IMG/VR virus record: IMGVR_UViG_3300028840_000175
Span: 1 to 20,132 of that record
DNA: 20,132 nucleotides
Direction: 5' to 3' (one strand)
From: a virus
The notes beneath the pieces are model-generated. The model was not told where the DNA came from, made no database searches, and saw only the letters and a list, made by a program, of their open reading frames with translations. Every line of letters starts with the position of its first letter. Within the stretch, counting starts at the first letter, position 1. The translations under genes and the position numbers were made by a program. This document shows positions 5,535-12,123 of the stretch, piece by piece.

Positions 5535-5566
5535 CCCCTAGGGATTCAGTAGTTTAAAAAATTAAG

Positions 5567-5601
5567 CGTCCGATAAAGTTTATGCTTGACTTTATCGGAC
5601 G
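5567..5601. promoter_or_regulatory. Perfect 13-bp inverted repeat overlapping the capsid promoter (operator or terminator)
   Basis: CGTCCGATAAAGT at 5567-5579 is exactly matched by its reverse complement at 5589-5601. One extra wobble pair each side leaves a loop of about 7 nt. The right arm covers half of the -35 hexamer and the first 10 bases of the spacer of the promoter below, the usual place for a repressor or activator site. As RNA it would form a strong hairpin followed by TTTCTGTT, so it could also end transcription arriving from the scaffold gene. The downstream U-run is imperfect, so I rate the operator reading at least as likely. Confidence 0.6.
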
Positions 5602-5614
5602 TTTCTGTTATCAT
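5582..5614 (+). promoter_or_regulatory. Sigma70-like promoter with extended -10, upstream of major capsid gene
   Basis: TTGACT at 5586-5591, a 17-nt spacer and TATCAT at 5609-5614, with TG at 5606-5607 forming an extended -10. Each hexamer matches 5 of 6 consensus bases. The box is preceded by ATGC, and the same ATGCTTGAYT recurs in the promoter at 11647. The predicted start near 5621 gives a leader of about 110 nt before the capsid ATG. This would let the capsid gene be transcribed independently of the packaging genes. Confidence 0.65.
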
Positions 5615-5731
5615 ACCACTATAGAGCACTGGCTACATAAGGGCGACCCTTGGCCGAACCGAGATGGTTTTCAAATGTGCAACTGGAATGTAACGTAACG
5701 AAAACTGTATTGTAAACCAAGGAGAACAAAG
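5615..5731 (+). other. Leader of the capsid gene with a small hairpin
   Basis: No gene is present. AAGGG (5639-5643) and CCCTT (5647-5651) form a 5-bp stem with a 3-nt loop, and flanking GGC/GCC may extend it after an internal loop. The capsid ribosome site AAGGAGA at 5719-5725 is strong and well spaced (about 7 nt). A very short ATG frame at 5664 has no ribosome site. A hairpin near the 5' end could stabilise the abundant capsid mRNA, which is inference. Confidence 0.4.
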
Positions 5732-6649
5732 ATGGCTAGTGTAACCCTTGCCGAGTCGGCAAAACTTTGTCAAGACGAAATGATCCAGGGCGTGATCGAA
5801 AGTATCGTGACCGTGGACAACTTTTATGAGTTGCTGCCCTTCCAAGGCATTGATGGTAACGGTTTGACATACAACCGTGAGAACGCCCTAGGTGACGTCG
5901 AGAGCATCGGTGTTGCGGGTACTATCACTGCGAAGGCTGCTGCAACCTTCACCCAAGTCACTTCCAGCCTGACCAAGATCATCGGTGACGCCGAAGTTGA
6001 CCAAATGCTGCAAGCCACTCGTTCCAGCATCAACGACCAGACTGGTACGCAGATTGCCTCCAAGGCCAAGTCTGCCGGTCGTAACTACCGTAACCAGTTG
6101 ATCAACGGTTCCGGTGCGGCGGATGAGTTCAACGGTCTTATCAACCTCTGTGCATCCGGCCAAAAGGTTGCCACAGGTGCGAACGGTGGAGCCCTGAGCT
6201 TCGAGTTCATGGATGAGTTGCTTGACCTTGTCACGGCCAAAGACGGCCAGGTTGACTACATTGCCATGCACGCCCGTACACGTCGTTCGTACAAGACGTT
6301 GCTTCGTGCTCTCGGTGGTGTGACCATGGATGAGGTCTTCACCCTTCCTTCTGGGAAGCGTATGCTGGCCTACTCCGGCGTGCCTGTGTTCCGTAACGAC
6401 AACATCCCCATCACCCAGACCAAGGGTACTGGTTCTGCTCAGACAACCATCTTCGCGGGTGTGTTTGATGACGGTAGCCAGAAGATGGGTCTCGCAGGTC
6501 TGTCTGCTCGTAACGCTTTCGGTCTCATGATCGACGACGTTGGAATCAGCGACACCAAGGACGAGCGTATCTGGCGTGTGAAGTGGTACTGCTCTCTGGC
6601 CCTCTTCAGTGAGTTGGGTCTGGCCTGTGCTGACGGAATCACTAACTAA
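5732..6649 (+). CDS. Major capsid protein, HK97-like fold
   Basis: 305 residues. This is the shell subunit of the head. The sequence follows a recognisable family pattern: an N-terminal helix with TLAESAKL, then LPFQGIDGNGLTYNREN (residues 35-51), GDAEVDQMLQATRS (85-98), LINGSGAADEFNGL (123-136), a central YIAMHARTRR, and a C-terminal W/Y-containing strand before GLACADGITN. LTYNREN and GDAEVD recur in a group of HK97-fold coat proteins that I recall from many siphoviruses. There is no obvious N-terminal delta domain or protease site, consistent with the separate scaffold upstream. It has its own promoter, a strong AAGGAGA site and a terminator directly behind it, as expected for the most abundant virion protein. 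Confidence 0.88.
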   Translation: MASVTLAESAKLCQDEMIQGVIESIVTVDNFYELLPFQGIDGNGLTYNRENALGDVESIGVAGTITAKAAATFTQVTSSLTKIIGDAEVDQMLQATRSSINDQTGTQIASKAKSAGRNYRNQLINGSGAADEFNGLINLCASGQKVATGANGGALSFEFMDELLDLVTAKDGQVDYIAMHARTRRSYKTLLRALGGVTMDEVFTLPSGKRMLAYSGVPVFRNDNIPITQTKGTGSAQTTIFAGVFDDGSQKMGLAGLSARNAFGLMIDDVGISDTKDERIWRVKWYCSLALFSELGLACADGITN

Positions 6650-6663
6650 GAAACCCTAATCCA

Positions 6664-6692
6664 GGGCCGGGCATGTCCCGGCCTTGTTTTTG
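6664..6692 (+). terminator. Rho-independent terminator after major capsid gene
   Basis: GGCCGGG (6665-6671), a 5-nt loop and CCCGGCC (6677-6683), followed by TTGTTTTTG. It lies 15 nt after the capsid stop. The T-run merges into the first of the twin palindromes that follow. Confidence 0.88.
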
Positions 6693-6743
6693 TCTACATA
6701 TATGTAGACATGTTTCGAAGTTTTGTCAACAAATATATAGACA
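6688..6743. repeat. Twin 23-bp direct repeats, each a TGTC-N12-GACA palindrome
   Basis: Copy 1, core 6691-6710, is TGTCTACATATATGTAGACA, a perfect 20-bp palindrome. Copy 2, core 6724-6743, is TGTCAACAAATATATAGACA, nearly palindromic at its ends. Including a leading TTT, the copies match at 20 of 23 positions, and their centres are 33 bp apart, about three helical turns. The arrangement looks like a double operator for a dimeric DNA-binding protein. I find no good sigma70 promoter around it, although it lies just where a promoter for the next gene would be expected. A recombinase or other site is possible. Confidence 0.7.
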
Positions 6744-6761
6744 AATGGAAAGGAATTACCC

Positions 6762-7322
6762 ATGGCTGAAGCTTTCTACATGGTATCTCTACCCGCGTCG
6801 GCAAAGACGCACTTGAAGAATGGTAAGGACAAAGTTGTTGTGTCCGCCGAATCCGGAGCCGAGGCTCTATTGGTAGCCAAAGCTGCCGTTCATCTGCCTT
6901 CCGACGCTGCCTGGGCTGCTGCAACCGCAACCGCTCTCGCTCACGTCACAGACCTTGAGGGATGGCGGGCAAAGGTGACGCTGAGCACCGGTGGAGCCGT
7001 TGTCGAGACAGTGACTGTCACTGCCGCATCTGGTGATGATTTTGATGACATCGGGGGTGATCTGGTGACAGCGTTGAATGCGACGACATCCATCGCCAAC
7101 GCCGCATACGCCACACCGAACCTGACCGTAGCCGCTATCGCTGACGGCCTGGGCGATCACACGCTCACCGTTGCGTTCCTACCTCCTACGACCTGGGACG
7201 ACGACACAATTGAGTTCAGTTCGCTGTTTGGTGCCATTGTCCATGAAGGTATCGCCGGTGCTGATGTCACTGTCGTGTTGAACGACGTTGTCGCTCCAAC
7301 CAAGCTGTACGAAGTCAACTAA
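6762..7322 (+). CDS. Probable capsid accessory (decoration-like) virion protein
   Basis: 186 residues from ATG 6762 with AAAGGA 7 nt upstream. It is rich in Ala, Thr, Val and Asp, with alternating patterns (KVTLSTGGAVVETVTVTAASGDDFDD, residues about 71-95) that suggest a beta-sandwich. No Cys or membrane helix is seen. It follows the major capsid gene directly and is bracketed by terminators on both sides, as is common for abundant virion proteins that coat or stabilise the shell. The decoration role is inferred from position and composition, and I do not recognise a named family. How it is transcribed is unclear: either read-through of the capsid terminator or a non-standard promoter in the twin-palindrome region. 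Confidence 0.6.
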   Translation: MAEAFYMVSLPASAKTHLKNGKDKVVVSAESGAEALLVAKAAVHLPSDAAWAAATATALAHVTDLEGWRAKVTLSTGGAVVETVTVTAASGDDFDDIGGDLVTALNATTSIANAAYATPNLTVAAIADGLGDHTLTVAFLPPTTWDDDTIEFSSLFGAIVHEGIAGADVTVVLNDVVAPTKLYEVN

Positions 7323-7340
7323 GCATTGATTTGCATTTAA

Positions 7341-7372
7341 AGGGGTGGCCACCGGGGTCACCCCTCTCTTTC
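7341..7372 (+). terminator. Hairpin terminator after the decoration-like gene
   Basis: AGGGGTG (7341-7347) pairs perfectly with CACCCCT (7359-7365) around an 11-nt loop. It is followed by CTCTTTCT, a weak pyrimidine tract. It is likely a partial terminator that lets some transcription into the connector genes, for which no promoter is seen. Confidence 0.65.
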
Positions 7373-7394
7373 TAATCCGTAGAGAGGACATAGC

Positions 7395-7883
7395 ATGCAA
7401 CAGACAAAGCTCGTAGTAACAATGAATGCCAAGATGGCTGGCATCACAAAAGTCATCAATCGGTGTAGCTTCGTAGATGGCAAGTTTGAATTCATCGGCT
7501 CCATGCAGGACTGCAACGGCCTTGCCCGCTATCTGGACGCCAGCTTCAACTGCAACGTCTGGATGGGACCTCCCACCGCCAACCCGATTTTCCCGGAAGC
7601 CGCCCCCGCTCCTGTAGTGGAAGAGGTCACTCCTGAGGATCTGGTCAATGAAGACGAAGAGATCACCGAACGTGAACAGAAGATCCTGGACGCAATCAAC
7701 TGTGTGGATCTTGAAGCCTGGGTTGACGATGTTGTCGCTCATCCTTCTGTTTCCACCATTGCCGAACTGATCGAAGACTCCACCGTGACCAAGGAGGAGA
7801 TCGTTGCCGTCATCGAAAACTGGATGGAAGATGACGCCGAAGCCGAGGAAGAGGCTCCTGCTGACGAGGATAAGAAAGACTAA
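7395..7883 (+). CDS. Hypothetical acidic virion-module protein
   Basis: 162 residues from ATG 7395 with GAGAGGA about 6 nt upstream. The N-terminal third (KLVVTMNAKMAGITKVINRC...) looks beta-rich and contains three Cys. A proline/alanine linker around residues 63-75 leads into a very acidic helical C-terminal half ending in a Glu/Ala/Asp-rich tail with a lysine pair. This two-part plan with an acidic extension could be a head-associated accessory or connector factor. I do not recognise it, and nothing indicates catalysis. It precedes the first connector gene by 2 nt, so it is probably translated together with the connector genes. Confidence 0.6.
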   Translation: MQQTKLVVTMNAKMAGITKVINRCSFVDGKFEFIGSMQDCNGLARYLDASFNCNVWMGPPTANPIFPEAAPAPVVEEVTPEDLVNEDEEITEREQKILDAINCVDLEAWVDDVVAHPSVSTIAELIEDSTVTKEEIVAVIENWMEDDAEAEEEAPADEDKKD

Positions 7884-7885
7884 TC

Positions 7886-8434
7886 ATGGCATTTGTTTTT
7901 GAAGTACAAGATCAGGATGTACCCACCGACACGGCTAATGCCTACGTGTCTGTGGCCGACTTTAAGGATTACTGTGACGGACGTGGGTATGATTACACTA
8001 CCCCTTCGTACACAGATACTCAGATCCAGAACGCTATTGTCAGGGCTACGGATTACATGGATGGTAGATGGACCTTCGCAGGGTATCGGTATGACGACGA
8101 TCAGAGTACCGAATGCCCTCGGAGGGACGTCTGGAATAAGGCGGGGACTACATATCTGGACTACTTCCCGCTCCATTTAATTCAAGCCTGCTGTGAGTAC
8201 GCCAAGATCGACCTGATCGACGGCCTATCTCTTATGCCAAATTCGGTTGACAACACCGTCCCTGGACAGTTGACATACCTGCGTACCCGTGTTGAGGGTG
8301 CCGTCGAGAAGGAGCAGCACTTCAACTCCTTCAAAGGCTACGGGGGGAAATATCCCTCATGGCCCCTGCCTGACAAGATGATGCGGCAGTCTGGGCTTTT
8401 GGGCTCCAGTCGTAGAACACTCGGGAGGGGCTAA
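7886..8434 (+). CDS. Head-tail connector (adaptor), DnaT-like family
   Basis: 182 residues. The N-terminal part, with SVADFKDYCDGRGYDY (about residues 22-37) and then TDTQIQNAIVRATDYMDGRW, follows the pattern of phage proteins often annotated as 'DnaT-like ssDNA-binding'. In structural modules these are adaptors binding under the portal (like HK97 gp6 or SPP1 gp15). The short helical bundle, size and place right after the capsid genes agree. The ssDNA label is probably only an annotation habit here. The start ATG 7886 follows the upstream TAA by 2 nt and has only a distant GAGGA, so it may depend on translational coupling. The stop overlaps the next ATG (TAATG). Confidence 0.75.
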   Translation: MAFVFEVQDQDVPTDTANAYVSVADFKDYCDGRGYDYTTPSYTDTQIQNAIVRATDYMDGRWTFAGYRYDDDQSTECPRRDVWNKAGTTYLDYFPLHLIQACCEYAKIDLIDGLSLMPNSVDNTVPGQLTYLRTRVEGAVEKEQHFNSFKGYGGKYPSWPLPDKMMRQSGLLGSSRRTLGRG

Positions 8435-8811
8435 TGGCTGCTCTTCCTGCTGAGTATCAATGGATCGCCGACCTTATCGAGGATGAGGGCCGAGTGGTTA
8501 CCCTCCAGAAGCTGACAGGCGGAGCCACGGACCCGGCAAAACCTTGGAGAGGAGACTCCGCCGCCCTTGACGCTCCAGACGTGTCTGTCTCCGCTGTGAC
8601 GGTCATGTACACGCCCAAGGAGGTCGATGGGTCCTCGATCCTGAAGACCGATCTGAAGGCATTTGTGGCCCCTCACGCGACCGCTGACCTGGGCTTGTAT
8701 GACTTTTTTGTGGACACCAACGGCGATGGCCGGACCTGGAGTATCACAAATATTGAAAAAATTGAGCCCGGAACAGATATTTTGCTTTACATTTTGCAAC
8801 TAAGGCGTTAA
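8434..8811 (+). CDS. Head closure (stopper) protein, probable
   Basis: 125 residues, start overlapping the upstream stop (TAATG), with GGGAGG close upstream. The sequence opens with a helix (YQWIADLIEDEGRVVTLQKL) and then is mostly beta. GSSILKTDLKAFVAP and WSITNIEKIEPG resemble the small beta-barrel stoppers (SPP1 gp16 / HK97 gp7 type) that plug the portal after packaging and receive the tail. Residues 60-75, with a VDGSSI loop, match a pattern I recall from this group. The call depends strongly on order: adaptor, stopper, tail terminator. Confidence 0.65.
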   Translation: MAALPAEYQWIADLIEDEGRVVTLQKLTGGATDPAKPWRGDSAALDAPDVSVSAVTVMYTPKEVDGSSILKTDLKAFVAPHATADLGLYDFFVDTNGDGRTWSITNIEKIEPGTDILLYILQLRR

Positions 8812-8820
8812 TATAGGACT

Positions 8821-9252
8821 ATGATCTCTACGAGAACTGAGGCCAAAGATTTGATGATGGCGTTACTGAAGACTGTAACGGACGCTCAGGCTCTGTATGT
8901 GATCTGGGAAGACGCCGACGCTGGCACCCAGGACCAGAAGCCTGATACCAAGGTTCCTTTTGTTCGGGTGGCCTGTCGTCACCGGGAAGCCCCGGCCACG
9001 AGTCTTCCGCATGATGGTAAGAAAAAATATCAGGAGAATGGATTTCTTTTGATCGAAGTCCTAACCCCGCAAGGGGATGGCACCGTTACCGCTGACACAT
9101 TGGTTCAAGCGTTCCAGACGGCGTTGCGTACACGTCAGTCACTTAATGCGAGCGTGTGGTACACTAATGTTCGAGCCCAGGAGATCGGGCCGGATAATGG
9201 ATGGTTTAAAACGAACGTGGTGGCAGATTTCCACTACAATATTATTGAGTAG
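8821..9252 (+). CDS. Tail terminator protein, probable
   Basis: 143 residues. Tail terminators (lambda gpU / DUF4128-like) form a ring capping the tail tube before it joins the head. Features: an N-terminal helix with the start of an alpha/beta fold, a central FLLIEVLTPQGDG strand-loop (about residues 74-86), a helix TADTLVQAFQTALR, and a C-terminal strand WFKTNVVADFHYNII, which is the usual ending in this family. It lies immediately before the tail tube gene, as expected. The ribosome site is poor (AGGA only 2 nt from ATG), unusual in this module, so expression may be low, fitting a six-copy protein. Confidence 0.7.
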   Translation: MISTRTEAKDLMMALLKTVTDAQALYVIWEDADAGTQDQKPDTKVPFVRVACRHREAPATSLPHDGKKKYQENGFLLIEVLTPQGDGTVTADTLVQAFQTALRTRQSLNASVWYTNVRAQEIGPDNGWFKTNVVADFHYNIIE

Positions 9253-9261
9253 GAGTAAACA

Positions 9262-10812
9262 ATGGCTGCGGTAAACAAGATTAATTCCAACGACATCGAC
9301 CTCTACTTCGCGGAAGAGACTTCGATCAAAACCCTGCCTGGGACGCCTGACTGGTATGGCGTGCAGGCCAACACAACAACTGACTTTGGTGGGAATGTCA
9401 CCAAGACTCCTCGTGAATTCTTGACGTCCGACCGTCAACGTCGTAAGGGACAGACAACTGACTTGGATGCGGCTGGCTCGATCAACCACGACCTGGTTCA
9501 GGAAGGTCTCCAACGACTGATGCAGGGCTTCATGTTCGCCGACTTCCGATACAAGGCCGAGACAGGTGGAATGGGTGACACTGGTGTCATCACTTCGATT
9601 GGTGCATCCAACGACTACACTCGTACCACTGGAAGCTTCGTGACCGATGGCTACGAAGCGGGTGACCTTGTGTATGTGACAGGCTTTTCCAACTCTGCCA
9701 ACAACGGCCTCAAGACAGTGTCCGCAGTACTGGCATTGACCTTGACCGTGAGTGAGACTCTGGTTGCCGACGCTTCTCCGTCCGGCTGCAAGATCGTCAA
9801 GGTTGGTTTTGAGTTCGCAACTGGTGACCTGGATGTTGACGCCTCCGGTGACCTACCAACGCTGACCACAACCGCCAAGGACTGTACTGAGCTTGGCTTG
9901 GTTCCCGGTGAGACCATCTATATTGGTGGTGACGTTGCGAGCAATAATTTCACTAACTCCGCGAATGCCGGGTTCGCCCGTGTTCGTTCTGTTGCTGCCA
10001 ACGTGATCACGCTGGACAAGACAGAGGATACCTTTGTCACTGAGGCGGATGCCACACAGGATGTACGTATCTTCTTCGGTCGTGTATTGAAGAACGAAAC
10101 AGGCACCGACATCGTCCGTCGTACCTACAACGTCGAGCGTCAGCTTGGTGCTCCCGATGACGCAAGTCCGTCTCAGATCCAGTCTGAGTATTTGACAGGT
10201 GCTGTTCCGAATGAACTGACCTGGAACATCCCCACGGCTGATCTAGCGAAGCTGGACATCATGTGGATGGCGGCGGACCATGAGCAACGCACTGGTGCTA
10301 CTGGCATCAAGAGTGGTAACCGATATGCTGCGAGCGAAGAGGAAGCCTACAACACCAGCAGCAACGTCCCTCGTATTAAGATCGCCGTAGTGGACAGCAC
10401 CGACAGTGCTCCCACGGCTCTGTTCGCCTTCGCCGAGGAAGTGACATTGGTTGTTAACAACAACATCAGCCTGGATAAGGCCGTGGGTGTTCTTGGCTCC
10501 TTCGATGCTACCCACGGAAATTTTGAAGTGAGTGGAAACATCACAGCCTACTTCGCAGATGTTTCTGCCGTTACCGCCGTGCGTAACAACAGTGACGTCA
10601 CATTGGAAATTCACCTGGTAAGGGACAACGCCGGTATCAGCATCGACCTACCTCTGCTGTCTCTGGGCGATGGTCGTCTGAATGTTGAGAAGGATGAGTC
10701 TATCAAGCTGCCTCTGACTCACGATGCTGCCACAGGTGCCAGCATCGACTCTGGGCTTGACCACACACTTTGTCTTGTATACTGGGATTACTTGCCTGAC
10801 GCAGCCGAGTAA
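9262..10812 (+). CDS. Major tail tube protein with two inserted beta domains
   Basis: 516 residues with AGGAG 6 nt upstream of ATG 9262. The N-terminal ~100 residues (INSNDIDLYFAEETSIKTLPGTPDWYGV) and C-terminal ~240 residues (NELTWNIPTADLAKLDIMWM; VTLVVNNNISLDKAVGVLGSFD) follow the pattern of phage tail tube proteins that stack as hexamers. Between them, about residues 105-180 and 183-272 form two related beta-rich units (GDLVYVTGFSNSANNGLKTV and GETIYIGGDVASNNF...NAGFARV), each an insertion likely displayed on the tube surface. They explain the unusual length. A strong terminator follows, in keeping with high expression. Confidence 0.85.
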   Translation: MAAVNKINSNDIDLYFAEETSIKTLPGTPDWYGVQANTTTDFGGNVTKTPREFLTSDRQRRKGQTTDLDAAGSINHDLVQEGLQRLMQGFMFADFRYKAETGGMGDTGVITSIGASNDYTRTTGSFVTDGYEAGDLVYVTGFSNSANNGLKTVSAVLALTLTVSETLVADASPSGCKIVKVGFEFATGDLDVDASGDLPTLTTTAKDCTELGLVPGETIYIGGDVASNNFTNSANAGFARVRSVAANVITLDKTEDTFVTEADATQDVRIFFGRVLKNETGTDIVRRTYNVERQLGAPDDASPSQIQSEYLTGAVPNELTWNIPTADLAKLDIMWMAADHEQRTGATGIKSGNRYAASEEEAYNTSSNVPRIKIAVVDSTDSAPTALFAFAEEVTLVVNNNISLDKAVGVLGSFDATHGNFEVSGNITAYFADVSAVTAVRNNSDVTLEIHLVRDNAGISIDLPLLSLGDGRLNVEKDESIKLPLTHDAATGASIDSGLDHTLCLVYWDYLPDAAE

Positions 10813-10829
10813 TCAACCGTAACCAAATA

Positions 10830-10861
10830 GGGAGGTGCCATAGGGGCACCTCCCAGTTTTT
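10830..10861 (+). terminator. Strong rho-independent terminator after tail tube gene
   Basis: GGGAGGTGCC (10830-10839) and GGCACCTCCC (10845-10854) form a perfect 10-bp stem with a 5-nt loop, then AG and TTTTT. It lies 17 nt after the tail tube stop. I see no promoter between it and the chaperone gene at 10888, so downstream genes would depend on read-through or antitermination. Confidence 0.92.
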
Positions 10862-10887
10862 CTGACAATAGCAATCGGAGAAAACAC

Positions 10888-11322
10888 ATGTCAAACGTAC
10901 TACGCAAAATGTTCAAAACCGTCCCCTCCCTTGAAGAGAAGGGTGTAGTTATTGAGTATGGTGAAGGTGTTGAGATCACCGTGGCCCGTGCCGGTGGAGC
11001 CAACAAGAAGTTCGCCCGCATGCTGACCCGGCTGACTAAGCCCCATCGTCGTGCGATCCAGACAGAGACCGTGCCTGAGGGTGTGGAGAAGAAGATCGTC
11101 ATGGAGACCTACGCCAACTCAATCGTCAAAGATTGGAAAGGTATCACCAAGGACATCATCACCGGCGACGATGCAGACGCTGAGATCCAACTGGAGTGTA
11201 CCGCAGAAAACATCATCGCAGTGTTCGAGGCCCTGCCCGACCTGTTTGAAGATGTGGCCAAGTGCTCTCAGAACATCTCCCTATATCGGGCCGAGATCCT
11301 GGAAGCTGATTCGGGAAACTAA
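10888..11322 (+). CDS. Tail assembly chaperone, short form (gpG-like)
   Basis: 144 residues from ATG 10888 with GGAG 7 nt upstream. In lambda, gpG and the frameshifted gpGT hold the tape measure protein and recruit tube subunits. This protein sits between the tail tube and tape measure genes, is acidic toward the C-terminus, and ends at a slippery heptamer (GGGAAAC, 11313-11319) directly before its TAA. The sequence itself gives no distinctive motif. The call rests on position plus the frameshift site with an open -1 frame continuing into the next chaperone. Confidence 0.82.
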   Translation: MSNVLRKMFKTVPSLEEKGVVIEYGEGVEITVARAGGANKKFARMLTRLTKPHRRAIQTETVPEGVEKKIVMETYANSIVKDWKGITKDIITGDDADAEIQLECTAENIIAVFEALPDLFEDVAKCSQNISLYRAEILEADSGN

Positions 11323-11654
11323 TTGAGTGTCTGCTCTACTTCCAGGACATGGGAAAGAGTGAGGCACGCATTCTCAAGGAGTGCTACGCCTGGCGACGTC
11401 CTGTCCCGGACAAGATCCAAAATGCTCCAGACCTGTTGATGGGTCTGGAGTTTTATTTCCAGGCATTTATAGACCTAACAACTTGTAGGTCTTCTGGCTG
11501 GACCCCTGGACCGATCCCGTGGGGCGATATCGAAGCATACGCCATCGCCCTGGGCCTGGATGAGGAAGAGACAGACACGCTACATTACCACATATCTAAG
11601 ATGGATAATGCATATTTAGCAAGAATCGAGCAGAAAAATAAAAATAATGCTTGA
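10888..11654 (+). CDS. Frameshifted tail assembly chaperone fusion (gpGT-like)
   Basis: Produced by -1 slippage: read 10888-11319, back up one base, and continue 11319-11654, giving about 255 residues. At 11313-11319 the heptamer G GGA AAC is in the correct zero-frame phasing (tcG GGA AAC TAA). The -1 frame is open from 11310 to the TGA at 11652-11654 and carries convincing sequence from the first codon after the slip (LIECLLYFQDMGKSEARILK). The first ATG in that frame (11349) has AGGA only 1 nt upstream and would discard the conserved-looking LLYFQDM stretch, so independent start there is unlikely. The T part contains a Trp/Pro segment (WTPGPIPWGDIEAY) resembling lambda gpT-type domains. Confidence 0.85.
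11313..11319 (+). promoter_or_regulatory. Programmed -1 ribosomal frameshift site GGGAAAC
   Basis: A canonical X XXY YYZ heptamer (X=G, Y=A, Z=C) in zero frame, immediately followed by TAA. Lambda uses GGGAAAG in the same gene. The abutting stop codon probably promotes pausing. I did not identify a clear downstream pseudoknot by eye. Confidence 0.88.
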
Positions 11655-11679
11655 TTCGTCCGATAATATGTGATACACT
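11647..11679 (+). promoter_or_regulatory. Promoter for the gp10-like gene, positioned for a leaderless mRNA
   Basis: ATGC-TTGATT (-35 at 11651-11656), a 17-nt spacer, TG at 11671-11672, and TACACT (-10 at 11674-11679). Only six bases separate the -10 from the ATG at 11686, so transcription should begin at or beside the A of the start codon. The spacer starts with CGTCCGATAA (11657-11666), the same 10-mer that forms the arms of the dyad at 5567-5601. The hexamers match consensus only 4 of 6 each, so the extended -10 and the resemblance to the 5582 promoter carry the call. Confidence 0.55.
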
Positions 11680-11685
11680 TGGCTT

Positions 11686-12123
11686 ATGGCTAATAAGTTT
11701 TCCAGTAGGATGGCCCGTCTTGGTGACCGGATTCTGAAGAATTTCGAAAATACCATTAAGGATGCGGCCCTCGCAGGCACTGAAGAAGCGGTGATGCGTA
11801 CCCCGGTAAAGACCGGTAACGCCCGCACCAACTGGAGAATTTCTTTCGCAAGGCCCAATCTTGCCTTGATTAGTGCTCCCGATACTGGAGATCGGAACGT
11901 TAATCGAGAGACCGCATCAGCACGAGCCCTGATTGCTGCGGCCAACAAGATCAAGGGATGGAAGATGGTATCAGGACAGAACATTCTGATTGTTAATCCT
12001 GTACACTATATTGGCGACTTAGATAAAGGATCGTCCACGCAAGCCATGGAAGGGATGAGTTTGTTCGCTATTGCAGCTATCAAAGATAAGCTGCGGAAGG
12101 GAAGGTTGCTACGTGGCAACTGA
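11686..12123 (+). CDS. HK97-gp10-like tail completion / neck protein, displaced
   Basis: 145 residues. TPVKTGNARTNWRI (39-52) and LIVNPVHYIGDLDKGSSTQAMEGM (101-124) are the two signatures I associate with the HK97 gp10-like family. In that family the Thr-Gly-x-(L/A)-R element and the (N/S)x-x-Y-(A/I)-x-x-hydrophobic-(D/E)-x-G-T/S element are spaced as here. These proteins are usually encoded between the head closure and tail terminator genes. Here the gene lies after the chaperones and abuts the tape measure. There is no Shine-Dalgarno site upstream, and a promoter ends six bases before the ATG, so leaderless translation is likely. The gene overlaps the tape measure start by 11 bp. Confidence 0.75.
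   Translation: MANKFSSRMARLGDRILKNFENTIKDAALAGTEEAVMRTPVKTGNARTNWRISFARPNLALISAPDTGDRNVNRETASARALIAAANKIKGWKMVSGQNILIVNPVHYIGDLDKGSSTQAMEGMSLFAIAAIKDKLRKGRLLRGN

Follow-up and report, generated by a model that had tools for sequence, protein, structure and literature searches.

Two predicted promoters lie about 6 kb apart in one phage fragment, the first before the major capsid gene and the second before the gene for a gp10-like connector (Neck1), and both carry the same 10-bp word between their -35 and -10 boxes, in mirrored orientation. What might this word do, and does the mirrored arrangement bind the two genes into a special pair? The window, meaning here the whole analysed stretch of 20,132 nucleotides, is a late-gene fragment of an uncultured phage with terminase, portal, scaffold, capsid, connector, and tail genes. 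Its capsid protein shares at most 67% identity, over the full length, with those of cultured Mesyanzhinovviridae phages of Stenotrophomonas and Pseudomonas. We assigned phages to the YuA-like group (Mesyanzhinovviridae and allies) by a related major capsid protein together with a matching head-gene order, and the window has both. In IMG/VR, 66 related loci were found. Cultured phages showed DNA similarity neither to the window nor to a repeat array from one of its relatives.

Two promoters and three sites in the window

Direct reading agrees with the preliminary description in that both promoters consist of ATGCTTGAYT, 14 nt, TGN, and a -10 hexamer. At the capsid promoter (P1), ATGCTTGACT (5582-5591) is followed by the 14 nt (5592-5605; TTATCGGACG and TTTC), TGT (5606-5608), and TATCAT (5609-5614). 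At the Neck1 promoter (P2), ATGCTTGATT (11647-11656) precedes the 14 nt (11657-11670; CGTCCGATAA and TATG), TGA (11671-11673), and TACACT (11674-11679). The two spacer 10-mers are, as described, exact reverse complements at the same offset. Transcription is predicted to start near 5621 from P1 and near 11686, at the Neck1 start codon itself, from P2.

Chance had been considered an unlikely source of the match, and our counts bear this out: CGTCCGATAA has three exact matches in the window versus 0.01 expected from shuffled sequences, and none of 100 shuffles reached three. The word is indeed present at both promoters, but the copies total three instead of two, the one at 5567-5576 having been overlooked. 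Sites 1 and 2 together (5567-5601) make up an inverted repeat, CGTCCGATAAAGT-N9-ACTTTATCGGACG, which overlaps the P1 -35 (Table 1). The shared ATGCTTGAYT box is also present at both promoters but is less special than it had seemed, as TTGA is an ordinary -35. At P2, the stop codon of the preceding gene (TGA, 11652-11654) also falls within the box, and beyond the nearest relatives of the window mainly its TTGA core is retained.

Table 1. Positions of the promoters, sites, RNA structures, and genes in the window
Feature	Position	Strand	Remarks
P1, predicted capsid promoter	5586-5614	+	TTGACT, 17-nt spacer, TATCAT; TGT before -10; kept in relatives
P2, predicted Neck1 promoter	11651-11679	+	TTGATT, 17-nt spacer, TACACT; TGA before -10; kept in ten phages
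Site 1, CGTCCGATAA	5567-5576	+	Exact match; precedes the P1 -35 and forms the left arm of the inverted repeat
Site 2, TTATCGGACG on the + strand	5592-5601	-	Exact match; P1 -35/-10 spacer; kept in L004-L009 and L049
Site 3, CGTCCGATAA	11657-11666	+	Exact match; P2 -35/-10 spacer; present also in L006 and L009, with related words in seven other phages
Inverted repeat, 17-bp RNA hairpin	5564-5604	+	Arms 5564-5580 and 5588-5604; loop 5581-5587
Capsid-gene leader, two GNGAY-loop hairpins	5626-5680	+	Loops 5643-5647 (GCGAC) and 5661-5665 (GAGAT); in the P1 transcription unit
Major capsid protein gene	5732-6649	+	phrog_212, E 5e-66
Neck1/gp10-like connector gene (tail connector)	11686-12123	+	phrog_169, E 5e-21; orthologues in relatives

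The 9-bp word in related phages

Among 20 records chosen only by capsid similarity, two of which (G008 and G009) look like near-duplicates, the 9-mer GTCCGATAA occurs 129 times versus two occurrences of the reversed word. No other 9-mer is as over-represented in G011 (44 copies versus 0.8 expected), and the same holds for G027, G021, G030, G012, G016, and L092. Because G021, G027, G030, and L092 were retrieved by the array search itself, only the capsid-selected records can be taken as unbiased. Nine related records hold 179 exact copies versus two of the reversed word; their one-mismatch variants are near background, save for G5 changed to T or C and A9 changed to T. The preferred flanks are A and then C/G before the word and C/T after it, giving A-C/G-GTCCGATAA-C/T. 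Longer relatives have 12-44 copies and the 20-kb window only three. None of nine YuA-like records from outside the clade (G031-G039) contains the word, and no paper naming it as a phage element was found among the matches listed. Arrays in host genomes (110 stretches) were set aside, nearly all of them being regular tandem repeats or lacking the C/G flank, with L142 as an irregular exception. The records G023, G026, and G024 (L085, L089, and L087) share few proteins or none with the clade, yet they contain arrays of 4-6 TTATCGGAC sites, which hints at a host-encoded or horizontally shared regulator.

In the relatives, arrays of 4-17 copies in both orientations lie among small early-type or hypothetical genes, about 4.5 kb before the terminase gene in the case of L092, and arrays are also found just upstream of predicted promoters. 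Sites at promoters are single or paired, with about 21 placements in the -35/-10 spacers of predicted sigma-70 promoters versus about 1.2 expected, including four in L092 and G030 that belong to weaker promoter calls inside arrays. Some early-type promoters have a site 27-47 bp upstream of their -35, and some sites are located within genes. The preliminary description had proposed a regulator of selected structural genes. A conserved promoter-associated element, most simply the binding site of a regulator, is what we observe, but it extends beyond structural genes, since most copies lie in the arrays and upstream of other promoters. In G030 (841-1135; L095), an array enters a coding region (gene 776-1270) where the sites are read as Ser-Asp-Asn codons, so that the protein sequence seems bent to preserve the DNA word.

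The orientations are mixed, with 22 copies each way in G011, six each way in G009, and 11 versus 13 in G021. The capsid promoters of the window, L004-L009, and L049 carry the site on the minus strand, those of L010-type phages, G009, G011, G012, G027, and G030 carry it on the plus strand, and L012-type phages have it with one mismatch. Between clades, the offset of the site within the spacer shifts by about half a helical turn, in either orientation. The notion that the mirrored orientation represents a special pairing of P1 with P2 must consequently be abandoned, because orientations mix freely and flip between clades at capsid promoters.

Both promoters are nevertheless kept in relatives that retain the flanking genes, the conservation on which the preliminary description had made its proposal depend. 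Neck1 orthologues were collected by tblastn against the collected loci, a pattern search with the Neck1 protein having yielded no relatives. Ten phages, the window and nine relatives, have a Neck1 promoter with a TTGA -35 and a good -10 about 6-8 nt from the start codon. P2 is kept by L006 and L009, whose Neck1 proteins are 74% and 51% identical to that of the window, and the more distant L032 is without a P2-type promoter. Three of the ten P2 spacers (window, L006, and L009) contain GTCCGATAA, and the remaining seven have the related words CCGATAATATCGG and ATTATCGGG. As no clear Shine-Dalgarno sequence precedes the Neck1 start codon in the window, L006, and L009, Neck1 is likely to be expressed from P2 as a leaderless mRNA.

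A putative operator and its presumed reader

We suggest that GTCCGATAA represents the sites of one sequence-specific DNA-binding protein in the YuA-like clade, most likely a repressor blocking RNA polymerase, and we give this reading about an even chance. A protein bound between the -35 and -10 boxes of P1 and P2 would obstruct RNA polymerase, and the variable offset and orientation of the site in the spacer fit such blocking better than a fixed contact with an activator. The sigma-70 promoters P1 and P2 would thereby stay repressed until late in infection, when the regulator would be lost, inactivated, or titrated. Arrays among the early-type genes, with 4-17 sites each, might serve as the main control region with the primary operators, and the arrays in multiplying phage DNA could also titrate the regulator. 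Against a repressor, the sharpness of the 9-mer is unusual for an operator family, and the promoters concerned are predictions.

Instead of a repressor, the protein on the sites might be an activator or have an architectural role, and might come from the host, switching on or co-ordinating phage promoters as CtrA does; we regard this as rather unlikely. An activator could sit at the sites 27-47 bp upstream of early-type -35 boxes and in the arrays just upstream of predicted promoters, and the arrays common to apparently unrelated phages would fit a host protein equally well. There is a precedent in the host CtrA boxes found in promoters of alphaproteobacterial phages, including a phage branching near the YuA-like group (PMC9437464). 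The present phages similarly have regulatory boxes in their promoters, but the CtrA box is TTAA-N7-TTAA, whereas the conserved box here is GTCCGATAA. An activator would also agree with the outcome of family scans of 50 accessory proteins of the near-full-length G027, in which no repressor (HTH or other) and no integrase or recombinase family was recognised, although a divergent repressor could escape such scans. However, a protein bound within a spacer, as it would be at P1 and P2, is normally a hindrance to RNA polymerase, and the shift in offset by about half a helical turn between clades, in either orientation, also argues against activation.

It is less probable still that the arrays are replication-origin iterons bound by an initiator, the promoter copies being side sites that link virion-gene transcription to replication. 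Iterons would suit the short identical sites, which are densely packed at comparable positions in several genomes, with a shared G-rich hairpin close by. The sites are nevertheless in both orientations and irregularly spaced, no initiator was recognised beside the arrays, and the cumulative GC skew has no turning point at them, although, with genes that run one way, the skew is uninformative.

Which protein could be the putative repressor? The scans of G027 gave hits to DUF7178, an HD-domain protein, DUF2284, and zinc ribbons. In each of the six records that encode the close form of DUF7178, its gene adjoins an array or lies between arrays; G018 has the sites and lacks the gene. The AlphaFold model of the DUF7178 protein (pLDDT 73.5), the sole protein given a fold-level search, had no significant fold match, and we consider this protein a weak candidate. 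A trypsin-like protease was rejected as the regulator, the internal sites encoding the SDN of a conserved protease motif. A Z-genome (diaminopurine) phage, brought to mind by dGTP diphosphohydrolase-like and HD proteins, was also rejected, as ten genomes contained no adenylosuccinate-synthetase (PurZ-type) homologue. Origin as a host uptake signal, which the strict 9-mer and inverted pairs in terminators might recall, is argued against by the promoter positioning and the low copy number.

Several phage systems resemble the proposed one in part. In cluster A mycobacteriophages (L5/TipsytheTRex), operators and stoperators are bound by a monomeric repressor, and their orientation follows transcription and is needed for function (PMC9283540). 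Both systems have short asymmetric sites, many per genome (more than 20 in some cluster A phages), at promoters and in intergenic spaces, with one reader protein, which is presumed here. Unlike stoperators, the present sites use both orientations about equally and are packed in arrays; they are 9-mers instead of 13-mers, and no homologous repressor was recognised. We did not class the system as a stoperator system because it does not follow the orientation rule. In SPbeta, SPBRE elements in many promoter regions are read by the master regulator MrpR, which has a tyrosine-recombinase fold (PMC10516654). In both cases, one element recurs at many promoter regions within a phage, but the sequence is different, and no tyrosine-recombinase fold was recognised here by the family scans and the fold search of one protein. 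SPbeta is also temperate, whereas no integrase or repressor was recognised here. We propose only tentatively that the reader of GTCCGATAA is a new type of regulator, one that has no homologue recognisable among HTH proteins, recombinases, or repressors and that acts on the early arrays as well as on the virion promoters of apparently virulent phages. The regulator may also be a host factor adopted independently by several phage lineages, because the apparently unrelated G023/G026 and G024 carry the same arrays.

The capsid-gene hairpin and leader

The inverted repeat at P1 can also be read as RNA. The hairpin folds with -23.8 kcal/mol (75-nt stretch), and over about 20 relatives its stem positions 7-13 vary on both sides with pairing kept. 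In these sequences, the right arm, which overlaps the -35 and spacer, pairs with the upstream arm. A U-rich tract follows the stem in the window clade, for example TTTTTTG in L006. L009 has an ordinary terminator directly upstream of the capsid promoter instead, and many distant relatives have terminator-like hairpins there. A search of Rfam gave no match to the promoter or the capsid leader of the window. The hairpin is probably a terminator (or a processing hairpin) of upstream read-through that has merged with the promoter, which would explain why the site looks mirrored at P1. That the repeat is only an RNA hairpin or terminator, with the P2 match reflecting no shared protein, is very improbable despite the strong covariation, the U-rich tract, and the terminators in L009 and distant relatives, because GTCCGATAA is not needed for the hairpin yet is kept where the left arm is lost (L009 and L049), runs past the stem in L010-type phages, and occurs without such a hairpin at P2 and in most array copies.

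Past the capsid gene, the window has other strong terminator-like hairpins between late genes (6662-6686, 7341-7365, and 10830-10854), and their presence implies a need for read-through, antitermination, or internal promoters such as P2.

A scan that let the fifth loop base vary found 98 GNGAY-type hairpins in about 60 capsid leaders versus 10 in shuffled sequence. They usually occur as two in tandem, with conserved loops and varying stems, in most of the loci L004-L062 and in the cultured phages PAE1, Epa5, Bhz59, and RcSimone-Hastad (L268-L271). These cultured YuA-like phages share with the window the gene order around the capsid gene and the hairpin or terminator, promoter, and GNGAY leader before it, but the capsid promoter regions read in them are without GTCCGATAA. 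The GNGAY element might be bound by a virion protein or might affect transcription or antitermination. Tandem GTGAT-loop hairpins just before the RBS of another gene in G019 (30521), G020 (31870), and G037 (17146; gene-sense coordinates) indicate that the element occurs outside capsid leaders too.

Part of the clade is also enriched in a second word, AGTGACAT. With one mismatch allowed, the window has 17 matches versus five expected, at 1680, 3774, 3978, 16378, and 17818 among others, and G011 has 50 sense and 10 antisense copies, often overlapping gene starts.

Dispersed phage operator systems have earlier yielded novel DNA-binding proteins such as the L5 repressor and MrpR. The present site is short, strict, and highly repeated, which makes a protein pull-down practical given a cultured host-phage pair. 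A near-invariant and testable cis-element seems to link early control regions and single virion promoters of the clade to one regulator. The order of probable hairpin terminator, promoter with its putative operator, structured leader, and gene suggests that the capsid gene of YuA-like phages is transcribed as an insulated unit, with an RNA leader that is conserved, and is not simply part of a late operon.
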